Below are positions 12,923 through 33,808 of a DNA stretch of 39,365 nucleotides, one piece after another. The notes below the pieces were generated by a model. It did no database searches. It saw nothing but the letters and a program-made list of their open reading frames with translations, and was not told where the DNA came from. How positions within the stretch are numbered: position 1 is the first letter of the stretch; each line of letters opens with the position of its first letter. Source of the DNA: an uncultured Saprospiraceae bacterium (lineage in GTDB: Bacteria > Bacteroidota > Bacteroidia > Chitinophagales > Saprospiraceae); the NCBI GenBank assembly GCA_937872405.1, contig CALMSP010000317.1, forward strand, positions 1 to 39,365, read 5' to 3'. The position numbers were made by a program, and so were the translations under genes.

Positions 12923-12956
12923 TCAACTACTTATATCAAATAAAACCTTTAATATA

Positions 12957-13844
12957 ATGAAAAATATTGCAGTAATTGGTGCCGGTACTATGGGTAATGG
13001 CATTGCGCACCTGTTTGCGATGAAAGGCTTCCAAGTTTCATTAGTGGACGTATCGGAGGCGGCCCTGCAAAAAGGCTTGCAAACCATCGGCGTGAACCTG
13101 GATCGAATGATCAAAAAAGAATTGCTGACGGAAGCAGATAAAACGGCTACATTAGCCCAAATCACTACGTTTAGCGCCATTTCGGAAGGTGTAGCCAGCG
13201 CAAATTTGGTCGTAGAAGCAGCAACAGAACATGTGAATCTGAAGTTGGATATTTTTAGGCAATTGGAACAACACGCGCCCACAGCGGCCGTCTTGGCGAG
13301 CAATACGTCTTCTATTTCTATCACAAAAATTGCTGCCGCAACCCGCCGCCCAGAACAGGTAATTGGGATGCATTTTATGAATCCCGTACCTGTAATGAAG
13401 CTGGTGGAAGTGATTCGTGGTTATTCTACGAGCGACGAGGTAACGCGAACCGTTTTTGACCTTTCCGTGCAGTTGGGCAAAACGCCTGTAGAAGTTAATG
13501 ATTATCCGGGGTTTGTTGCCAATCGCATTTTGATGCCCATGATCAATGAAGCGATTTATGCGCTGTATGAAGGCGTAGCGGAGGTATCGGCGATTGATAC
13601 GGTGATGAAACTTGGTATGGCGCACCCTATGGGGCCGCTACAGCTGGCAGATTTTATAGGGTTGGACGTTTGTTTGTCTATTTTAAATGTATTGTACGAA
13701 GGTTTTGGAAATCCCAAATACGCGCCGTGCCCGCTTTTAGTAAATATGGTGATGGCTGGCAAGCTCGGCGCGAAGTCGGGTGAAGGTTTTTATGAATATG
13801 TACCTGGTTCGAAGGAATTGGTTCCAGCGTCGCGTTTTCGTTAA
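12957..13844 (+). CDS. hbd: 3-hydroxybutyryl-CoA (3-hydroxyacyl-CoA) dehydrogenase
   Basis: The 295-aa reading starts at ATG 12957, because the frame upstream merely overlaps gmhA. The NAD-binding Rossmann start is AVIGAGTMGNGIAHLFA. The substrate region has LASNTSSISITKIAA and MHFMNPVPVMKLVEVIRG with the catalytic His-Glu pair. The C-terminal helical domain contains DYPGFVANRILMPMINEA and HPMGPLQLADFIGLD. It oxidises 3-hydroxyacyl-CoA with NAD or runs in reverse in butyrate-type pathways. It is a single-function enzyme without a fused crotonase. The gene lies 34 bp after gmhA and is convergent with ndh over a hairpin. Confidence 0.93.
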   Translation: MKNIAVIGAGTMGNGIAHLFAMKGFQVSLVDVSEAALQKGLQTIGVNLDRMIKKELLTEADKTATLAQITTFSAISEGVASANLVVEAATEHVNLKLDIFRQLEQHAPTAAVLASNTSSISITKIAAATRRPEQVIGMHFMNPVPVMKLVEVIRGYSTSDEVTRTVFDLSVQLGKTPVEVNDYPGFVANRILMPMINEAIYALYEGVAEVSAIDTVMKLGMAHPMGPLQLADFIGLDVCLSILNVLYEGFGNPKYAPCPLLVNMVMAGKLGAKSGEGFYEYVPGSKELVPASRFR

Positions 13845-13860
13845 AAATAATTGAATATCA

Positions 13861-13884
13861 GTAGTTTATGCATTAAAAAACTAC
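13861..13884. terminator. Hairpin between convergent hbd and ndh genes
   Basis: GTAGTTT and AAACTAC form a seven-base stem around a ten-base loop. The right arm overlaps the ndh stop codon. Neither side has a strong uninterrupted T run, so it would be at best a modest bidirectional terminator. Confidence 0.3.
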
Positions 13885-15197
13885 AAAATTTCCTTCGCGA
13901 GCGGCTGGCCTTCCTGAAGCCCTTTAGGCACTTTCGGGCGAATGATTAATCGTAGGGATTGGTCGTAAGTAGCATAATTCCAAACCCAGTTGATGAACAC
14001 AAACAGTTTGTTTTTTACGCCAAGCAGCGTGAATAGATGCACAAACATCCAAACAAACCAAGCAAAAGCCCCTTGAAATCGGATCAAAGGTAGGTCCACA
14101 ACTGCGAGGTGCCGCCCAATGGTTGCCATAGAGCCTTTGTCTTTATAAAAGAATTGTTTCATTGGCTTGCCCTGTACCAAACGTTTCAAGTTATTAGCGA
14201 GGTGTTGAGCATGCTGAATGGCTACTTGAGCAACTTGGGGCTGTCCTTTGGGCCAGTTTTCTTCCGTCATATAAGCAATGTCGCCAATAGCAAAAATATC
14301 CTGGAGTTTTTCTATCTGATTGTACCGATTTACATACAAACGTTTTCCAGGAGCAAAGACCTCGGCTGGCAGTCCATCTATTGTAGAGCCGATAACGCCG
14401 GCGGCCCAAATCACCTTATTAGCACGGAGTCGTTCGCCATGATTCGTAGTTACCCATTTGCCATCAAAATCTGTAACTAAAGTATTTAATTGCACCTTAA
14501 CATCCAGTGCCATTAGAAATTGGAGTGCTTTTGCGGAGGCTTGTTCTGACATGGTGTTCAGTACACGGGGCGCACCCTCTATGAGGTAAATGTCTATTTC
14601 TTGAATATTCAGTTCGGCAAAATCTTTGGGTAGCACGAAGCGCTTCATTTCGGCTAATGACCCAGCTACCTCTACGCCAGTGGGGCCACCACCTACCACA
14701 ACAATATCCAGCAGCCCCTGCCGTTCGTCATAGTCGGTAGTAGTAAGCGCTTTTTCATAATCATTTAAAATGCGGTTGCGTAAAAAAAGTGCTTCTGACA
14801 CACTTTTCATAGGTATGGCTTGCGCTGCTAATTGTTCATTACCGAAGAAATTGGTATCGGCGCCAATGGCAAGTACCAAATAATCATAGGACAAATCGCC
14901 AAGATTGGTATGAATCTTCTTCTGCAAGGGGTCAACTGTTTGTACTTCCGCCATGCGGATATACACATTGGAACGACGCTGGAATAACTTGCGCAACGGA
15001 AATACAATAGAACTTGGCTCCAGCCCTGACATTGCCACTTGATAAAACAATGGCTGGAACTGATGGTAGTTATTCTTATCAAGCAAAACAACCTGAAAGT
15101 CGGAGGTAGCCAATTGGCGCGCGAGTGTTAGCCCTCCAAAACCACTGCCAACAATCACTACACGCTTATGGTTGGTTTCGGGAATATTAATCGTCAT
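13881..15197 (-). CDS. ndh: Type II NADH:quinone oxidoreductase
   Basis: This 438-aa protein has the FAD-binding VVIVGSGFGGLTLARQLA near the N-terminus and the NADH-binding VVVGGGPTGVEVAGSLAEM near residue 166. IFAIGDIAYM (about 303-312) is the conserved second FAD contact. The C-terminus has hydrophobic/amphipathic segments (FAWFVWMFVHLFTLLG, FVFINWVWNY) that fit monotopic membrane attachment. NDH-2 moves electrons from NADH to quinone without pumping protons. The gene starts a minus-strand series and has its own upstream spacer of about 105 bp after the S4-protein gene. Confidence 0.93.
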   Translation of the reverse strand: MTINIPETNHKRVVIVGSGFGGLTLARQLATSDFQVVLLDKNNYHQFQPLFYQVAMSGLEPSSIVFPLRKLFQRRSNVYIRMAEVQTVDPLQKKIHTNLGDLSYDYLVLAIGADTNFFGNEQLAAQAIPMKSVSEALFLRNRILNDYEKALTTTDYDERQGLLDIVVVGGGPTGVEVAGSLAEMKRFVLPKDFAELNIQEIDIYLIEGAPRVLNTMSEQASAKALQFLMALDVKVQLNTLVTDFDGKWVTTNHGERLRANKVIWAAGVIGSTIDGLPAEVFAPGKRLYVNRYNQIEKLQDIFAIGDIAYMTEENWPKGQPQVAQVAIQHAQHLANNLKRLVQGKPMKQFFYKDKGSMATIGRHLAVVDLPLIRFQGAFAWFVWMFVHLFTLLGVKNKLFVFINWVWNYATYDQSLRLIIRPKVPKGLQEGQPLAKEIL

Positions 15198-25698: not shown

Positions 25699-26721
25699 AT
25701 GGCAGACAGTCCTTATATCATGGAATATTTAGATCTTATCATCATTGGTGGCGGCCCCACAGGGCTGAACTGTGCGATCTCAGCGGCTGAGGCTGGGCTA
25801 AATTATGTCGTACTGGAAAAAGGCCCTTTAGTCAACTCTATTTACAATTTTCCAGTTAATATGACTTTTTTCTCTACATCGCGGCTATTAGAAATTGGCA
25901 ACACACCTTTCATTTCGCATGGCGACAAGCCTACCCGTCGGGAAGCCTTGGAATATTATCGCCGAATATGGCAAAGCTGGAAACTACGAGTGCATTTGTA
26001 CGAACCCGTGCTGGAAATGCAGCCTGCCAACGCAGGAGACTATTATATCATACAATCGAACAAAGCAATATATTATACCCGTGCGGTTATTATTGCAACT
26101 GGTTTTTATGATACGCCGCGTATGCTACATGTACCAGGAGAACATTTACCAAAAGTAAAACATTATTATGATGATGCGCATATTTATGCTGGGCAGCGCG
26201 TGCTGGTAGTGGGTGCCGCTAATTCTGCCTGCGATGTAGCGCTGGAAACGCATTATAAAGGGGCGGAAGTAACCATGGCAATCCGAGAAAGCGAAATTTA
26301 TCCGAAAGTGAAATATTGGATTCGTCCGAACATCGAAAATCGAATCAAGGAAGGCAGTATTCGCGCTTTTTTCAATACCACTGTAAAAGCGATTGACACG
26401 GACACCGTTACGCTACAAACACCTGAATATGAGCGAGTTATACCTAATGATTTTGTATTGGCTATGACAGGCTACCAGCCCAACTACGCTTTTCTGGAAA
26501 CGCTGGGCATTGCCATTCCTGATGTACCACCACGCATACCCATGCACAATTCTGATACGTTGGAAACTTCTCTGCCCAGAGTGTATCTGGCTGGCGTACT
26601 GTGCGCTGGGCTTGAAACGAACAGGCTTTTCATTGAAAATACACGCGACCATGGAACCCGTATTCTGCGTGATTTATTACCAAAATTAAAAGCAGTGGCT
26701 TATAATGAGTACGAAGTATAA
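25699..26721 (+). CDS. ypdA: YpdA-like FAD/NAD(P)H oxidoreductase (bacillithiol-disulfide reductase family)
   Basis: This 340-aa protein contains DLIIIGGGPTGLNCAISAAE for FAD and a second dinucleotide motif VLVVGAANSACDVALE (about residue 168). The stretch NMTFFSTSRLLEIGNTPF followed by KPTRREALEYYR is characteristic of the YpdA/Bdr family. In Firmicutes YpdA reduces bacillithiol disulfide with NADPH. Like that family it lacks a CxxC redox pair. No bshA, bshB or bshC gene is in this window. An in-frame ATG at 25720 (MEYLDLIIIGGG) would give a more typical N-terminus. The downstream spacer carries a dispersed repeat. Confidence 0.88.
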   Translation: MADSPYIMEYLDLIIIGGGPTGLNCAISAAEAGLNYVVLEKGPLVNSIYNFPVNMTFFSTSRLLEIGNTPFISHGDKPTRREALEYYRRIWQSWKLRVHLYEPVLEMQPANAGDYYIIQSNKAIYYTRAVIIATGFYDTPRMLHVPGEHLPKVKHYYDDAHIYAGQRVLVVGAANSACDVALETHYKGAEVTMAIRESEIYPKVKYWIRPNIENRIKEGSIRAFFNTTVKAIDTDTVTLQTPEYERVIPNDFVLAMTGYQPNYAFLETLGIAIPDVPPRIPMHNSDTLETSLPRVYLAGVLCAGLETNRLFIENTRDHGTRILRDLLPKLKAVAYNEYEV

Positions 26722-26839: not shown

Positions 26840-29800
26840 TTAAGCAATAGCCTCAGCGAGATAAGTAATAAAACGCTCCTCTAATATTTGCTGAATGATG
26901 CTGGCCACGGCTTGGCGCTCGCAATCTTTACTAATACCGTACTCCGTATCGCGTAGTGTAGGCGGGGCAACTACTCGTCGCGTAAGCCGATTTTTATAAA
27001 AATCCTGCCTATGGATATGCTTTGGCGTTTCGAGTGGTTGGTTCTGCACAACAACCCAAAACGGATGCATCTGCTCGTCATCAAGCATCCAGCGTTGTAG
27101 TCCACTTTCCATTTTCAATAAAGGATACACACCGGGATGGGTTAAACTAAATTCTATGCCGCACAATTTGTCGTTCGGCTGTTGCGGCGTCAAGTTGGTC
27201 GAAGATTGGTCAGCATTATCAAAAGGCATTTTAATGTAACTCATGCGCTGTTGGGGTGCTGCTGCTTCATTCGCAGGCACGGCTTCATAGTAGTAGGCTT
27301 CTCGGAACCATACAGCTTCACCGGCCCATAGTATGCCAATATTCTGAAAAATAGCAATATATACATTAGCTAAATACTCAATAGGCATACCATAGATACC
27401 CATGAAGCAAATATTATCTTCTGGGTGCATGATGCTGTACAAATTGATTTTGTATTGCCGGCAATCGGATTCGAGCTTTTTTAAATGGTCGTAAGTATGC
27501 GGCGTGTATGGTTGCAAGTGCATGGTACTCAGGGCCAAGCTGATTTCGGTAGCTTCGATTTCCTGTTGCAAGGACTTCATGCCGTTGTGCATTTTTAACA
27601 GATCCGTGTAGCGATTACTTTTAATCGGCGATTTCCAAAATGCCGGATGTTTTTTCTCTTCCTCAAGTTCCTCTAATTCCTGTTCCATTCGCATGAAGAT
27701 ATGATTCTCTTGGAGGCTATTCATTTCCCGTCGCAGCATACCTGCATGATTAGCCTGATTGATTTTGTCAAGCTCTTCTAAAAGCAATTCTAAGCCCAAG
27801 GGATCATCTTTGGCGTTTATGTTGAGGCTATTGGCATTTGGATTGTAACTAATCTGTACCTGTAGATGATCATCAGAATCGAATGCATTGAGTTTTTTGG
27901 CTAAGGGAGTAAGTAAATATTCACGGATAACACGCTGCAAGTAGCGCGCACCATACTGCGGGTGATACCCCTGTTTGCCCAGAAAGTCAAGCACTTGCGG
28001 TTCCATGTGCAGGTCAAGTCGGCGATATTTTATACCTTCGCGTTCGCGCAACTGTGCAATCTCCCGTTCTACAATAAACCGAATGGTCGTGCTATCTAAT
28101 GCCGCAAACGGCACTACTTTTTCAATGCGATTGAATAGCTCCGGTCGGAAATATTGCTCTACCGCTTGTACAAATAATTGATCTGTATTATCCGACAAGG
28201 TGCTGGGCCGCCAGCTGATGGGTGGATGGCGCAGGATACCCGCGCCAATGTTGGAAGTCATAATGATAATGCTACTGCAAAAATTGACCACCTGCCCTTG
28301 ACTATCGGTCAGCCGCCCGGCATCCAATATTTGTAATAGGAGATCATAAAAACTGGCATGCGCTTTTTCAATTTCATCAAACAATAAAACACTGAAGGGG
28401 TTCTGCCGGAGGGCTGCCGTTAGCAACCCATCCGAAGTGTAATCCGTTCCGACCAAGCGCATAACAGATACAGGATCCGCGAATTCGCTCATATCAAAGC
28501 GTACCATCTGCCGGTAATCGCCAAAAAGGAATTGCGCAATTACCTTTGCCAGTTCTGTTTTGCCGACGCCAGTAGGCCCCACAAACAGAAAGGACGAAAT
28601 TGGTTTGCCGCTGCGGTTGAGGGCAGTTTTGATAATTGGCAGCATATCCACGATAAGATTCACTGCCTGCTCTTGCCCGAATACATTGGAATGAAAAAGT
28701 CGTCGCAATGCTGGCACATCCATGAATACATTCGGATCCACCATAAATATAGGCATCCCGGATTCTACACAAAAATGTCGCGTCACGACCGAGCGATCTA
28801 TGGTTTGCCCAACGGGATTGTTGAGGATGACGGTTTCCAAAAAGCGAATAGCCTTACCGGGCATACCGGCATAAGGTGAAAAGCGCCGCAACAGACGGAT
28901 AACTTCTGTGATGGCGGATGTATGGATGCGTACCTGCCGATGTGTTGCAATGTCCTGTACTTTTTGCAGGATAATAGCTTCCATATCACGGGTTGGCTCC
29001 TGAATTTTAATCACTTGAAATGTCGCCACGAAATTCGGACTTCTTAGTTCAATGGCTGCCAACTCTTCTGGGGTACATTCGGTAATCATCACCACTTCGC
29101 CCCGGTTGATGTAGTTACGCATCATATCTGCCAGACTTACGTTGCTGCCTTCGTACTGCCCTACACTAAAAAGTTCTTTCAAATTGCGCACAAAAAGCAG
29201 GTTATCAGAGCCTGTTAGTTCCTTACATAGCAAAGCCATGTTTTGCTGCCAACTGCCGCTATCCGCTGTTAGTTCTTTGACCAAAGTGGAAGCTGTCGTT
29301 TCCCATATTTGCTTCGGGTTGCCTGCCTGTTGGTGTTGGCGTGCCAGTTCCCATACGATGGTGGACTTCCCCACCCCGGAGGAACCTACCAGCAACACAC
29401 TACGGTTGAATTGATTCGCCAGTGCTTTGCGCAATTGTGCCAATTCTGCTTCCATGCCGTACAAAACTTGCTTCGGAATATCCAGGCGTTGAGCGACCTT
29501 GGGTAACAATTTTTCGGTGTTGTTTTTTTCAAGCGCATCTACCTCTGCTGGGGAGCGTACCTCTAAGGTGATGGGTTGTTGCACCACCTGCACTGTATCG
29601 AACCAAATTGTAGAAATGATGTCCTGCACAGCGCCCAGGCGCAGTTCCCGATTGAAGGTTACACGAATGGTTTCTTCCAAGCGCGGCACGAGTTCTGCTT
29701 CGGTTTCAGCAAAAGCCTCTACCCCATTCAATACAGGCACAATGCCTCTAAACCCTGTGTGGGTAGGAATGATAAAATAATCAAACTTGAGTTCAAAAGC

Positions 29801-30070
29801 TGGAAAACTAAAACCATCTTTGGCGGCCGGAAAATGGATAGAAAGCTGCTGCTTACCTTGAGGGCTATCGGTCCATTCTTTGAGCAAATCCTGTAGCAAT
29901 CCTTTGTTAAGTAGCTCATTTTGAATAACTTCCGCATATTTTTGCGCCAAGCTATCTATTGATTGGCCCACTCTAACCACACTTTTATCCGATAGGGAAA
30001 AGAGGAACGCCTCGCCATTGTAGTCTCGAATTTGAAAAGCGGTAAACGGAATGGTAATTTGAAATGACAT
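26840..30070 (-). CDS. Clp/ClpB-like double AAA+ ATPase with release-factor-like C-terminus
   Basis: Residues 1-190 are a beta-rich N-terminal region unlike the ClpB N-domain. AAA ring 1 (about 200-430) has Walker A GSSGVGKST (229-237), but Walker B reads LLFVRNLKEL without Asp-Glu. Ring 2 (about 455-740) is ClpB-like: Walker A GPTGVGKT (498-505), Walker B VLLFDEIEKAH, sensor MTSN, Arg finger in RPELFNR, sensor-2 GAR. The aromatic pore loop is shortened to GTDYTSDG. A coiled coil follows (about 755-850) with HPAFWKSP, then PCRF-like blocks: GIYGMPIEYLANVYIAIF (891-908) and VYPLLKMESGLQRW (981-994). The GGQ motif is absent. It may be a remodeller of translation complexes (inference). No ClpP gene is adjacent. 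Confidence 0.85.
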   Translation of the reverse strand: MSFQITIPFTAFQIRDYNGEAFLFSLSDKSVVRVGQSIDSLAQKYAEVIQNELLNKGLLQDLLKEWTDSPQGKQQLSIHFPAAKDGFSFPAFELKFDYFIIPTHTGFRGIVPVLNGVEAFAETEAELVPRLEETIRVTFNRELRLGAVQDIISTIWFDTVQVVQQPITLEVRSPAEVDALEKNNTEKLLPKVAQRLDIPKQVLYGMEAELAQLRKALANQFNRSVLLVGSSGVGKSTIVWELARQHQQAGNPKQIWETTASTLVKELTADSGSWQQNMALLCKELTGSDNLLFVRNLKELFSVGQYEGSNVSLADMMRNYINRGEVVMITECTPEELAAIELRSPNFVATFQVIKIQEPTRDMEAIILQKVQDIATHRQVRIHTSAITEVIRLLRRFSPYAGMPGKAIRFLETVILNNPVGQTIDRSVVTRHFCVESGMPIFMVDPNVFMDVPALRRLFHSNVFGQEQAVNLIVDMLPIIKTALNRSGKPISSFLFVGPTGVGKTELAKVIAQFLFGDYRQMVRFDMSEFADPVSVMRLVGTDYTSDGLLTAALRQNPFSVLLFDEIEKAHASFYDLLLQILDAGRLTDSQGQVVNFCSSIIIMTSNIGAGILRHPPISWRPSTLSDNTDQLFVQAVEQYFRPELFNRIEKVVPFAALDSTTIRFIVEREIAQLREREGIKYRRLDLHMEPQVLDFLGKQGYHPQYGARYLQRVIREYLLTPLAKKLNAFDSDDHLQVQISYNPNANSLNINAKDDPLGLELLLEELDKINQANHAGMLRREMNSLQENHIFMRMEQELEELEEEKKHPAFWKSPIKSNRYTDLLKMHNGMKSLQQEIEATEISLALSTMHLQPYTPHTYDHLKKLESDCRQYKINLYSIMHPEDNICFMGIYGMPIEYLANVYIAIFQNIGILWAGEAVWFREAYYYEAVPANEAAAPQQRMSYIKMPFDNADQSSTNLTPQQPNDKLCGIEFSLTHPGVYPLLKMESGLQRWMLDDEQMHPFWVVVQNQPLETPKHIHRQDFYKNRLTRRVVAPPTLRDTEYGISKDCERQAVASIIQQILEERFITYLAEAIA

Positions 30071-33337: not shown

Positions 33338-33808
33338 ATGGCTTGGAGAAGACTCAATGGACAGAAAATTGAATTGCCAATAAAGGATGCAGTAGAAGAA
33401 ACCCTGATCCGTGAAAAAGCTGCCGGGCACAAGCTCAAGGTTTGTATTGGCTCGGATTCTCAAGTGCGCGGTGGTGTGGTAGAATACGCCACCGTTATTG
33501 TTTTCCTTCGGGAGAAAAAGGGCGGATTTATGTTTATTCACAATTCGCGCTCAATGAAACAGATCAGCCTGCGCGAGCGCATGATCACGGAAGTAGCCAA
33601 GTCAGTAGAAGTGGCTTACGCCCTGTGCGATCTCTTGGATGCACATGATATTGCGCTGGAAGTACATGCCGACATCAATACCGACCCGCATTTCCAGTCT
33701 AACACTGCCCTCAAAGAAGCGATGGGCTACATCCTCGGTATGGGCTTCGTATTCAAAGCGAAGCCAGAGGCATTTGCCAGTTCCTACTGTGCGGATAAGG
33801 TAGTGTGA
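33338..33808 (+). CDS. YkuK/DUF458-type RNase H-fold protein
   Basis: This 156-aa protein carries the DUF458 pattern. VCIGSDSQVRGGVVEYATVI (about residues 35-54) has an Asp on the first strand of an RNase H-like fold. GGFMFIHNSRSMK and the Glu-rich LRERMITEVAKSVEVAYAL helix follow, then LEVHADINTDPHFQSN (about 106-121) with further acidic residues, and LGMGFVFKAKPEAFASS. Family members are associated with sporulation or stress in Firmicutes, but no activity is settled. The conserved acidic residues make a nuclease activity possible. It has its own promoter-like element and, 85 bp after the stop, a strong terminator. Confidence 0.88.
   Translation: MAWRRLNGQKIELPIKDAVEETLIREKAAGHKLKVCIGSDSQVRGGVVEYATVIVFLREKKGGFMFIHNSRSMKQISLRERMITEVAKSVEVAYALCDLLDAHDIALEVHADINTDPHFQSNTALKEAMGYILGMGFVFKAKPEAFASSYCADKVV

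Follow-up and report, generated by a model that had tools for sequence, protein, structure and literature searches.

A Clp-type AAA+ protein of Saprospiraceae with a GGQ-less tail related in sequence to release factor 2, and its two paralogues

The gene for protein A and the ancestry of its tail

The window analysed here (the whole stretch of 39,365 nucleotides from an uncultured Saprospiraceae bacterium) encodes on its minus strand a large protein, hereafter A, which the initial annotation read as a Clp-type AAA+ ATPase fused to a release-factor (PCRF) module. The question raised by the locus is whether the C-terminal part of A really descends from a release factor and, if it does, what such a module might be doing on an ATPase of this kind. 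The gene and its parts are arranged as follows.

26840–30070, minus strand: gene for protein A (1076 aa, ATG start), with an N-terminal domain, two AAA+ modules and a release-factor-like tail
29516–30070, minus strand: N-terminal domain of A (residues 1–185), without Pfam match
28751–29464, minus strand: D1, the first AAA+ module (residues ~203–440), Walker A kept (VGSSGVGKS)
27884–28606, minus strand: D2, the second AAA+ module (residues 489–729), retaining Walker A, the FDE of Walker B and the arginine finger
28202–28258, minus strand: loop where the ClpP-docking tripeptide would lie, reading ISW in the window protein
27431–27763, minus strand: helical region resembling release-factor domain 1, with the FW motif (residues ~770–880)
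27086–27418, minus strand: region resembling release-factor domain 2, with the E-x-G block (residues ~885–995) and no GGQ domain after it
26843–27085, minus strand: C-terminal 81 residues beyond the E-x-G block, at the position that release-factor domain 4 would take after excision of the GGQ domain

Positions 27808–26843 of the minus strand correspond exactly to residues 755–1076. The two AAA+ modules recognised in the initial annotation are both present, with the first P-loop at residues 225–237 and Pfam matches to AAA_2 (489–651) and ClpB_D2-small (658–729). The motifs that it quoted from the tail also lie where it had placed them: PAFWKSP at residues 809–815 (27626–27646), GIYGMPIEYLANVYIAIF at 891–908 (27347–27400), GVYPLLKMESGLQRW at 980–994 (27089–27133) and RRVVAPPTLRD at 1031–1041 (26948–26980).

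The convergent neighbour of A (25699–26721, plus strand) encodes a pyridine nucleotide-disulphide oxidoreductase (Pyr_redox_3), by its look a YpdA-type reductase, for which no functional link is obvious; a protein of the RNaseH_like family (PF04308) is encoded at 33338–33808 on the same strand. In a genome of the same genus (G189), A is followed just downstream by two tandem genes (L095:11229–12455 and 12923–14152), the products of which are identical over their first 60 residues.

When the tail of the window protein (its last 326 residues) was searched singly, it matched Pfam PCRF (PF03462) with an E-value of 0.0067 and NCBIfam prfB with one of 0.0061, both matches falling below the cut-offs. 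When whole genomes were scanned with Pfam PCRF, the match of the window protein (E=0.56) stood amid random coils, so that single-sequence searches alone could not settle the question. Profile-to-profile comparison of 32 A-type tails with eight RF2 sequences gave a score of 52.6 over 149 columns (90.2%, P=1.6e-6), with the FW motif (contained in PAFWKSP), the GGTEA-type helix and the E-x-G block in register, as the initial annotation had supposed. Reversed profiles scored 12.7–17.5, and the maximum of 120 column shuffles was 21.8.

The single-sequence Pfam match lies mainly over the coiled coil, which might suggest that the whole resemblance is a coiled-coil artefact. This explanation is refuted by the controls and retains virtually no probability: the part of the A tails that follows the coiled coil scores 43.0 against RF2 by itself (best shuffle 22.1), so that the coil cannot be its source, and reversed and shuffled profiles fail. 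Moreover, the only matches below E=3 in the PDB profile search described next are to RF2, and the top Foldseek matches of the structural models are all release factors.

Addition of members from Bradymonadia and Planctomycetes strengthened the comparison. With 43 A tails against RF1 and RF2, hhalign returned 96.0% (P=4.1e-9). A 13-member tail profile searched against 177,635 PDB sequences retrieved 21 RF2 chains with E-values from 1.7e-12 to 3.3e-7, ahead of one unrelated chain with E=3. An earlier HMMER profile built from the first ten A tails had found nothing relevant in the PDB; the search succeeded once further Bradymonadia members had joined the profile. Nine of the 13 members matched NCBIfam prfB (best 4.6e-10) and six matched Pfam PCRF (best 2.8e-4); the two other NCBIfam families listed for the tails were each matched by a single member, with E-values of at least 0.098. 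Homology between the tails of Saprospiraceae and those of Bradymonadia is clear as well (99.8%, P=3e-29).

AlphaFold models of the tails, built from a four-sequence alignment, are of low confidence (mean pLDDT 58.7 for the window tail and 60.4 for a Bradymonadia homologue at L016). In Foldseek searches of the PDB, RF2 and RF1 nevertheless took the first 20 places with the window model (best E=1.6e-5) and the first 24 with the L016 model (best E=3.5e-7). In a VIA comparison the L016 model aligned with RF2 over 180–186 residues, across both domains (Z about 12); generic helical bundles tied with RF2, but covered only the helical part. For the window model it is the helical domain that most RF2 matches cover. 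Because of this tie and of the mostly helical matches, the predicted structures support the profile evidence but are insufficient by themselves.

Taken at the level of sequence, the homology of A residues ~770–995 to domains 1 and 2 of bacterial RF2 is demonstrated. The initial annotation would have been refuted by a predicted fold unrelated to release factors or by a profile search in which another family scored clearly; neither outcome was obtained.

Paralogues B and C and their distribution

Searches with the full protein revealed that genomes with an intact A carry two related genes, B (about 1100 aa) and C (about 770 aa). Paralogue C ends after the D2-small domain and is devoid of a release-factor tail. 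In the window genome the two genes are located as follows.

L094:10401–13682 (contig C260): paralogue B, tail with E-x-G-x-H and IRIYD...LTDLR blocks
L102:5022–7301 (contig C237): paralogue C, followed by a gene for a DUF819 membrane protein (L102:7366–8505)

Comparison of profiles establishes that B, too, carries at its end a module of class I release-factor ancestry, which lacks the GGQ domain and extends through domain 4. The E-x-G-x-H block and the R-x-Y...D-x-R stretch are each present in all 34 B tails; in true release factors both lie near the decoding centre. B tails from Saprospiraceae and Planctomycetes matched RF1 and RF2 at 82%, and deletion of the GGQ domain from the release-factor profile raised the score to 65.2 (95.2%, P=2.6e-8), the N-terminal part alone scoring 47.9. 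Such a rise is expected of a release factor from which an inserted GGQ domain has been cut out, and the GGQ domain is described as an insertion in the codon-recognition domain in a study of release-factor evolution (PMC6514570). The alignment to the GGQ-deleted profile reaches domain 4, where R-x-Y...D-[LVI]-R of B corresponds to RTYNYPQNRVTDHR of RF1; the C-terminal part of B alone scores 28.5 (shuffle maximum 19.5). The domain-4 match is thus significant in paralogue B and undetectable by sequence in A.

A likeness of RRVVAPPTLRD in A to the C-terminal stretch of RF2, claimed in the initial annotation, finds no support: the C-terminal part of A matches release-factor profiles, whether GGQ-deleted or reduced to the C-terminal part, with scores of 12.7–16.2, at the level of the shuffles (maxima 15.0–16.7). 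The domain-4 resemblance is convincing only in B. The annotation was right about the identity of the domain, but had overlooked the three linked paralogues and the GGQ-less fusion in B.

Among 398 Saprospiraceae genomes, A was found in 133, B in 128 and C in 119; 110 have all three and 258 have none. Each pairwise co-occurrence is supported by Fisher p <1e-73, a value that is not corrected for phylogeny and is inflated by shared ancestry; the near-complete joint presence or absence of the three genes holds over 112 genera. Of 199 genomes of the window's order, eight had the tail, which in all but one of them, a remnant, formed part of a long fused frame. A profile of ten A tails was used for the family and phylum searches, and in a 395-genome sample of the phylum it matched only the window's own genome. 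More distant members of A turned up in the class to which a Lujinxingiaceae MAG belongs (Bradymonadia; 11 of 57 genomes) and in one class of Planctomycetes (6 of 108 genomes). Intact tails are always fused to the AAA+ part in frames of about 1000–1240 aa, and the shorter frames are incomplete or come from broken copies; the co-occurrence of the two parts, which had been proposed as a check of the fusion, is therefore met by a single gene wherever the tail is intact.

In Planctomycetes and Bradymonadia the genes are found together, as A-B-C operons (L135 of genome G936, L248, L252, L253, L254 and L256) or as A-B pairs (L016, L244, L245, L247 and L257). No other constant neighbour was seen at those loci. 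In Saprospiraceae the three are scattered as single genes. One genome (G106:C125:5658–6782, L101) retains A only as separated N- and C-terminal fragments and has neither B nor C, a case of joint loss of the system.

Several further observations concern individual loci. In three small genomes of genus g333 (G648, G726 and G776; 3.2–3.4 Mb), the A and B tails are very divergent and C was not detected. Two genomes have frames of 887–897 aa with weak matches to the B tail (G634:C124, E=3e-7; G716:C123, E=2e-5), which are perhaps a further relative. The B gene of the window genome is flanked by genes for a KdsC-like HAD protein (judged from the sequence, without a Pfam hit) and a UbiA prenyltransferase, and both recur as neighbours at L145 and L148. 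Proteins that look DUF819-like adjoin C at L137, L139 and L142. At L138 and L139, which belong to one genus, C adjoins a gene with PUA_3 and SAM methyltransferase domains, of the type of the 23S rRNA methyltransferase RlmI, so that a link to translation is possible.

The N-terminal domains of A and C are distantly related (hhalign 84.9%, P=6.4e-6; score 42.5 forward against 11.9 for the reversed control). The C domain had no match in the PDB, and comparison of the B domain with those of A and C gave nothing significant. In a quick tree of D2 modules the A, B and C clades are separate from ClpA, ClpB and ClpC; C of Bradymonadia falls near B, with weak support.

Elements missing from the tails and from the ATPase modules

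The absence of the GGQ domain from A, noted in the initial annotation, is confirmed: a GGQ-domain profile scores at shuffle level against both A and B tails. The string GGQ occurs in 6 of the 43 A tails, never in a GAGGQ context, and in none of the 34 B tails. The stop-codon recognition string SPF is found in 1/43 A and 0/34 B tails, and P-x-T in 8/43 A tails by a rough string count only. In the alignments the loop that leads from the E-x-G block to the next strand is also shortened. The loss of the SPF and GGQ elements argues against a role in termination itself, and since ordinary RF1 and RF2 genes are present elsewhere in the window genome, the termination factor of that genome is not A. 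The GGQ motif is kept in PrfH/RFH and in other rescue factors of bacteria. The average net charge is −13 for A tails and −7 for B tails, so that neither is an obvious rRNA binder, although RF2 itself is acidic.

The ATPase modules have undergone losses of their own. In all lineages compared, Walker A, the DE of Walker B and the arginine finger are retained in D2 of A, B and C. Walker A of D1 is kept in nearly all of them, but the D-E pair of the ClpB Walker B is found in none: the site reads hhhRN or hGR in A, mostly DN or DD in B, and is variable in C. The window protein has LLFVRN here and has also lost the pore-loop aromatic of D1; only C retains a D1 pore loop with an aromatic residue (KYLGEW). 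In D2, the GYVG threading loop has been deleted from every A, B and C compared (LVGTDYTSDGLLT in the window protein). This loss speaks against processive threading and, hence, against classical feeding of ClpP. At the position of the ClpP-docking loop, [LIVM]G[FLY] occurs in 27 of 34 distinct B loops, 15 of 20 C loops and 11 of 40 A loops and is absent from the ClpB compared; the A loop reads IGW or IGL in many relatives, with IGW in many Saprospiraceae, and IGF in Bradymonadia. The pattern of the D1 and D2 ATPase motifs in A, B and C is constant across the three lineages.

Possible functions and relation to known systems

We consider it plausible, though a little short of probable, that A, B and C constitute a three-subunit AAA+ machine of double-ring Clp/Hsp100 origin directed at ribosomes. 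Judging only from their co-occurrence and operons, the three would assemble as a mixed hexamer, in which D1 would have a structural role, binding ATP without hydrolysing it, and hydrolysis is inferred to take place in D2. The release-factor modules may serve as inert mimics and anchor the machine to the ribosome, in the A-site or factor-binding region, without stop-codon reading or peptide release; ribosome binding itself is inferred. Strokes of D2 might next remodel or take apart whatever is bound, be it a ribosome, a factor or a nascent-chain complex. Pulling, if any, would presumably proceed via the D1 loops of C, and substrates may be handed over to ClpP with the help of the [LIVM]G[FLY] loops in B and C. 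Recognition or dismantling of stalled ribosomes by A, as suggested in the initial annotation, remains an inference. No experiment or genetic linkage connects the complex to ribosomes, and the Saprospiraceae genes are scattered. The acidity of the tails, the loss of the decoding elements, after which the module may have acquired another use, the missing D2 pore loop and the low confidence of domain 2 in the models also count against the proposal.

Some of the same observations would suit a function away from the ribosome, with the release-factor-derived modules now serving in subunit assembly or as substrate adaptors within an ATPase that remodels proteins in general. This remains a real, if tentative, possibility: the conserved tail positions (F-W, E, Y and E-x-G) belong mostly to the structural core, SPF and GGQ are gone, the acidic tails of A and B are very divergent between phyla, and translation genes are not among the gene neighbours at the loci read. 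Such a role is harder to reconcile with the retention of the fold in two different subunits and with the invariance of E-x-G-x-H and R-x-Y...D-x-R in B. Rather unlikely in our judgement, and overlapping with the ribosome-directed model, is a ClpP-associated protease, the release-factor modules of which would be substrate-selecting arms for the degradation of stalled nascent chains or release-factor partners. ClpP is encoded in 10 of 10 genomes tested, and the docking-type tripeptide of most B and C loops and the D1 pore loop of C would fit; the deletion of GYVG from D2 in all three proteins of every lineage and the ISW of the window protein would not, and in an unsystematic look clpP was not seen beside A, B or C in the stretches read.

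The patchy occurrence of the genes within the family (about a third of the genomes) could also point to a conflict system, one that would sense damaged or captured ribosomes in defence against phages or in competition between bacteria. However, PADLOC matches were confined to generic AAA+ segments (DolB, PDC-M37B) without any full-length match, neither toxin-like genes nor a mobile-element context was seen at the loci read, and dispersed genes, as in Saprospiraceae, are unusual for defence islands; we regard this explanation as very improbable.

Should the ribosome-directed machine exist, its most specific form can be put forward only tentatively: a hetero-oligomer of the Clp-derived A, B and C would capture ribosomes at the factor-binding site through GGQ-less mimics, with subsequent ATP-driven dismantling or transfer of the nascent chain to ClpP. 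This would be an undescribed bacterial ribosome machine, parallel to Vms1-Cdc48 but made of unrelated parts. No AAA+/release-factor fusion was found in the searched text of Burroughs and Aravind (2019) on release-factor evolution (PMC6514570) or in that of Kaur et al. (2020) on NTP-dependent conflict systems (PMC7159879). Nor was a published description of a three-gene AAA+/release-factor system found in the open-access literature, subscription journals and preprints being outside the scope of the search. If docking on the ribosome is true, bacteria would possess an AAA+ remodeller devoted to ribosomes and brought to them by a release-factor mimic, an added class of rescue or quality control beside tmRNA, ArfA/B, RqcH, MutS2 and HflX. 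Even without such docking, GGQ-excised release-factor domains in two subunits illustrate the conversion of release factors into docking modules, and Clp paralogues with a dead D1 and without a pore loop would put to the test whether threading is indispensable for the work of Hsp100 rings.

Protein A meets neither the criteria of a release factor (GGQ, SPF) nor those of a classical Clp unfoldase (D1 Walker B, D2 pore loop). A, B and C are best described as a variant of the Clp/Hsp100 kind, the status of which as a ribosome machine depends on experiments. With ClpA, ClpB and ClpC they share the tandem AAA+ modules, the D2 Walker A and B motifs, the arginine finger and the ClpB_D2-small domain, and most B and C loops carry a tripeptide that may correspond to the docking loop of the ClpC/ClpA type; they differ in the loss of the D1 Walker-B glutamate and of the D2 GYVG loop, in an unrelated N-terminal domain, in the release-factor tails and in the organisation as three paralogues. 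RF2 (prfB; PCRF, PF03462) resembles A in the FW-motif helices of domain 1 and in the GGTEA-type helix and E-x-G block of domain 2, and B in addition in the R-x-Y...D-x-R stretch of domain 4, whereas A and B have neither the GGQ domain nor the SPF recognition loop and are fused to AAA+ modules. PrfH/RFH and other bacterial rescue factors are likewise release-factor paralogues re-used outside normal termination, for which no fusion to a Clp ATPase is mentioned in the searched text of PMC6514570. In eukaryotic ribosome quality control, a release-factor-type domain is likewise linked to an AAA+ remodeller, in the form of Vms1/ANKZF1 and Cdc48/p97. According to the same paper (PMC6514570), however, the Vms1/ANKZF1 release factor has a different fold (aeRF-1), is catalytic and is bound to Cdc48 through a motif, whereas A combines a domain of the bacterial release-factor fold, presumably non-catalytic, with the AAA+ modules in one polypeptide.
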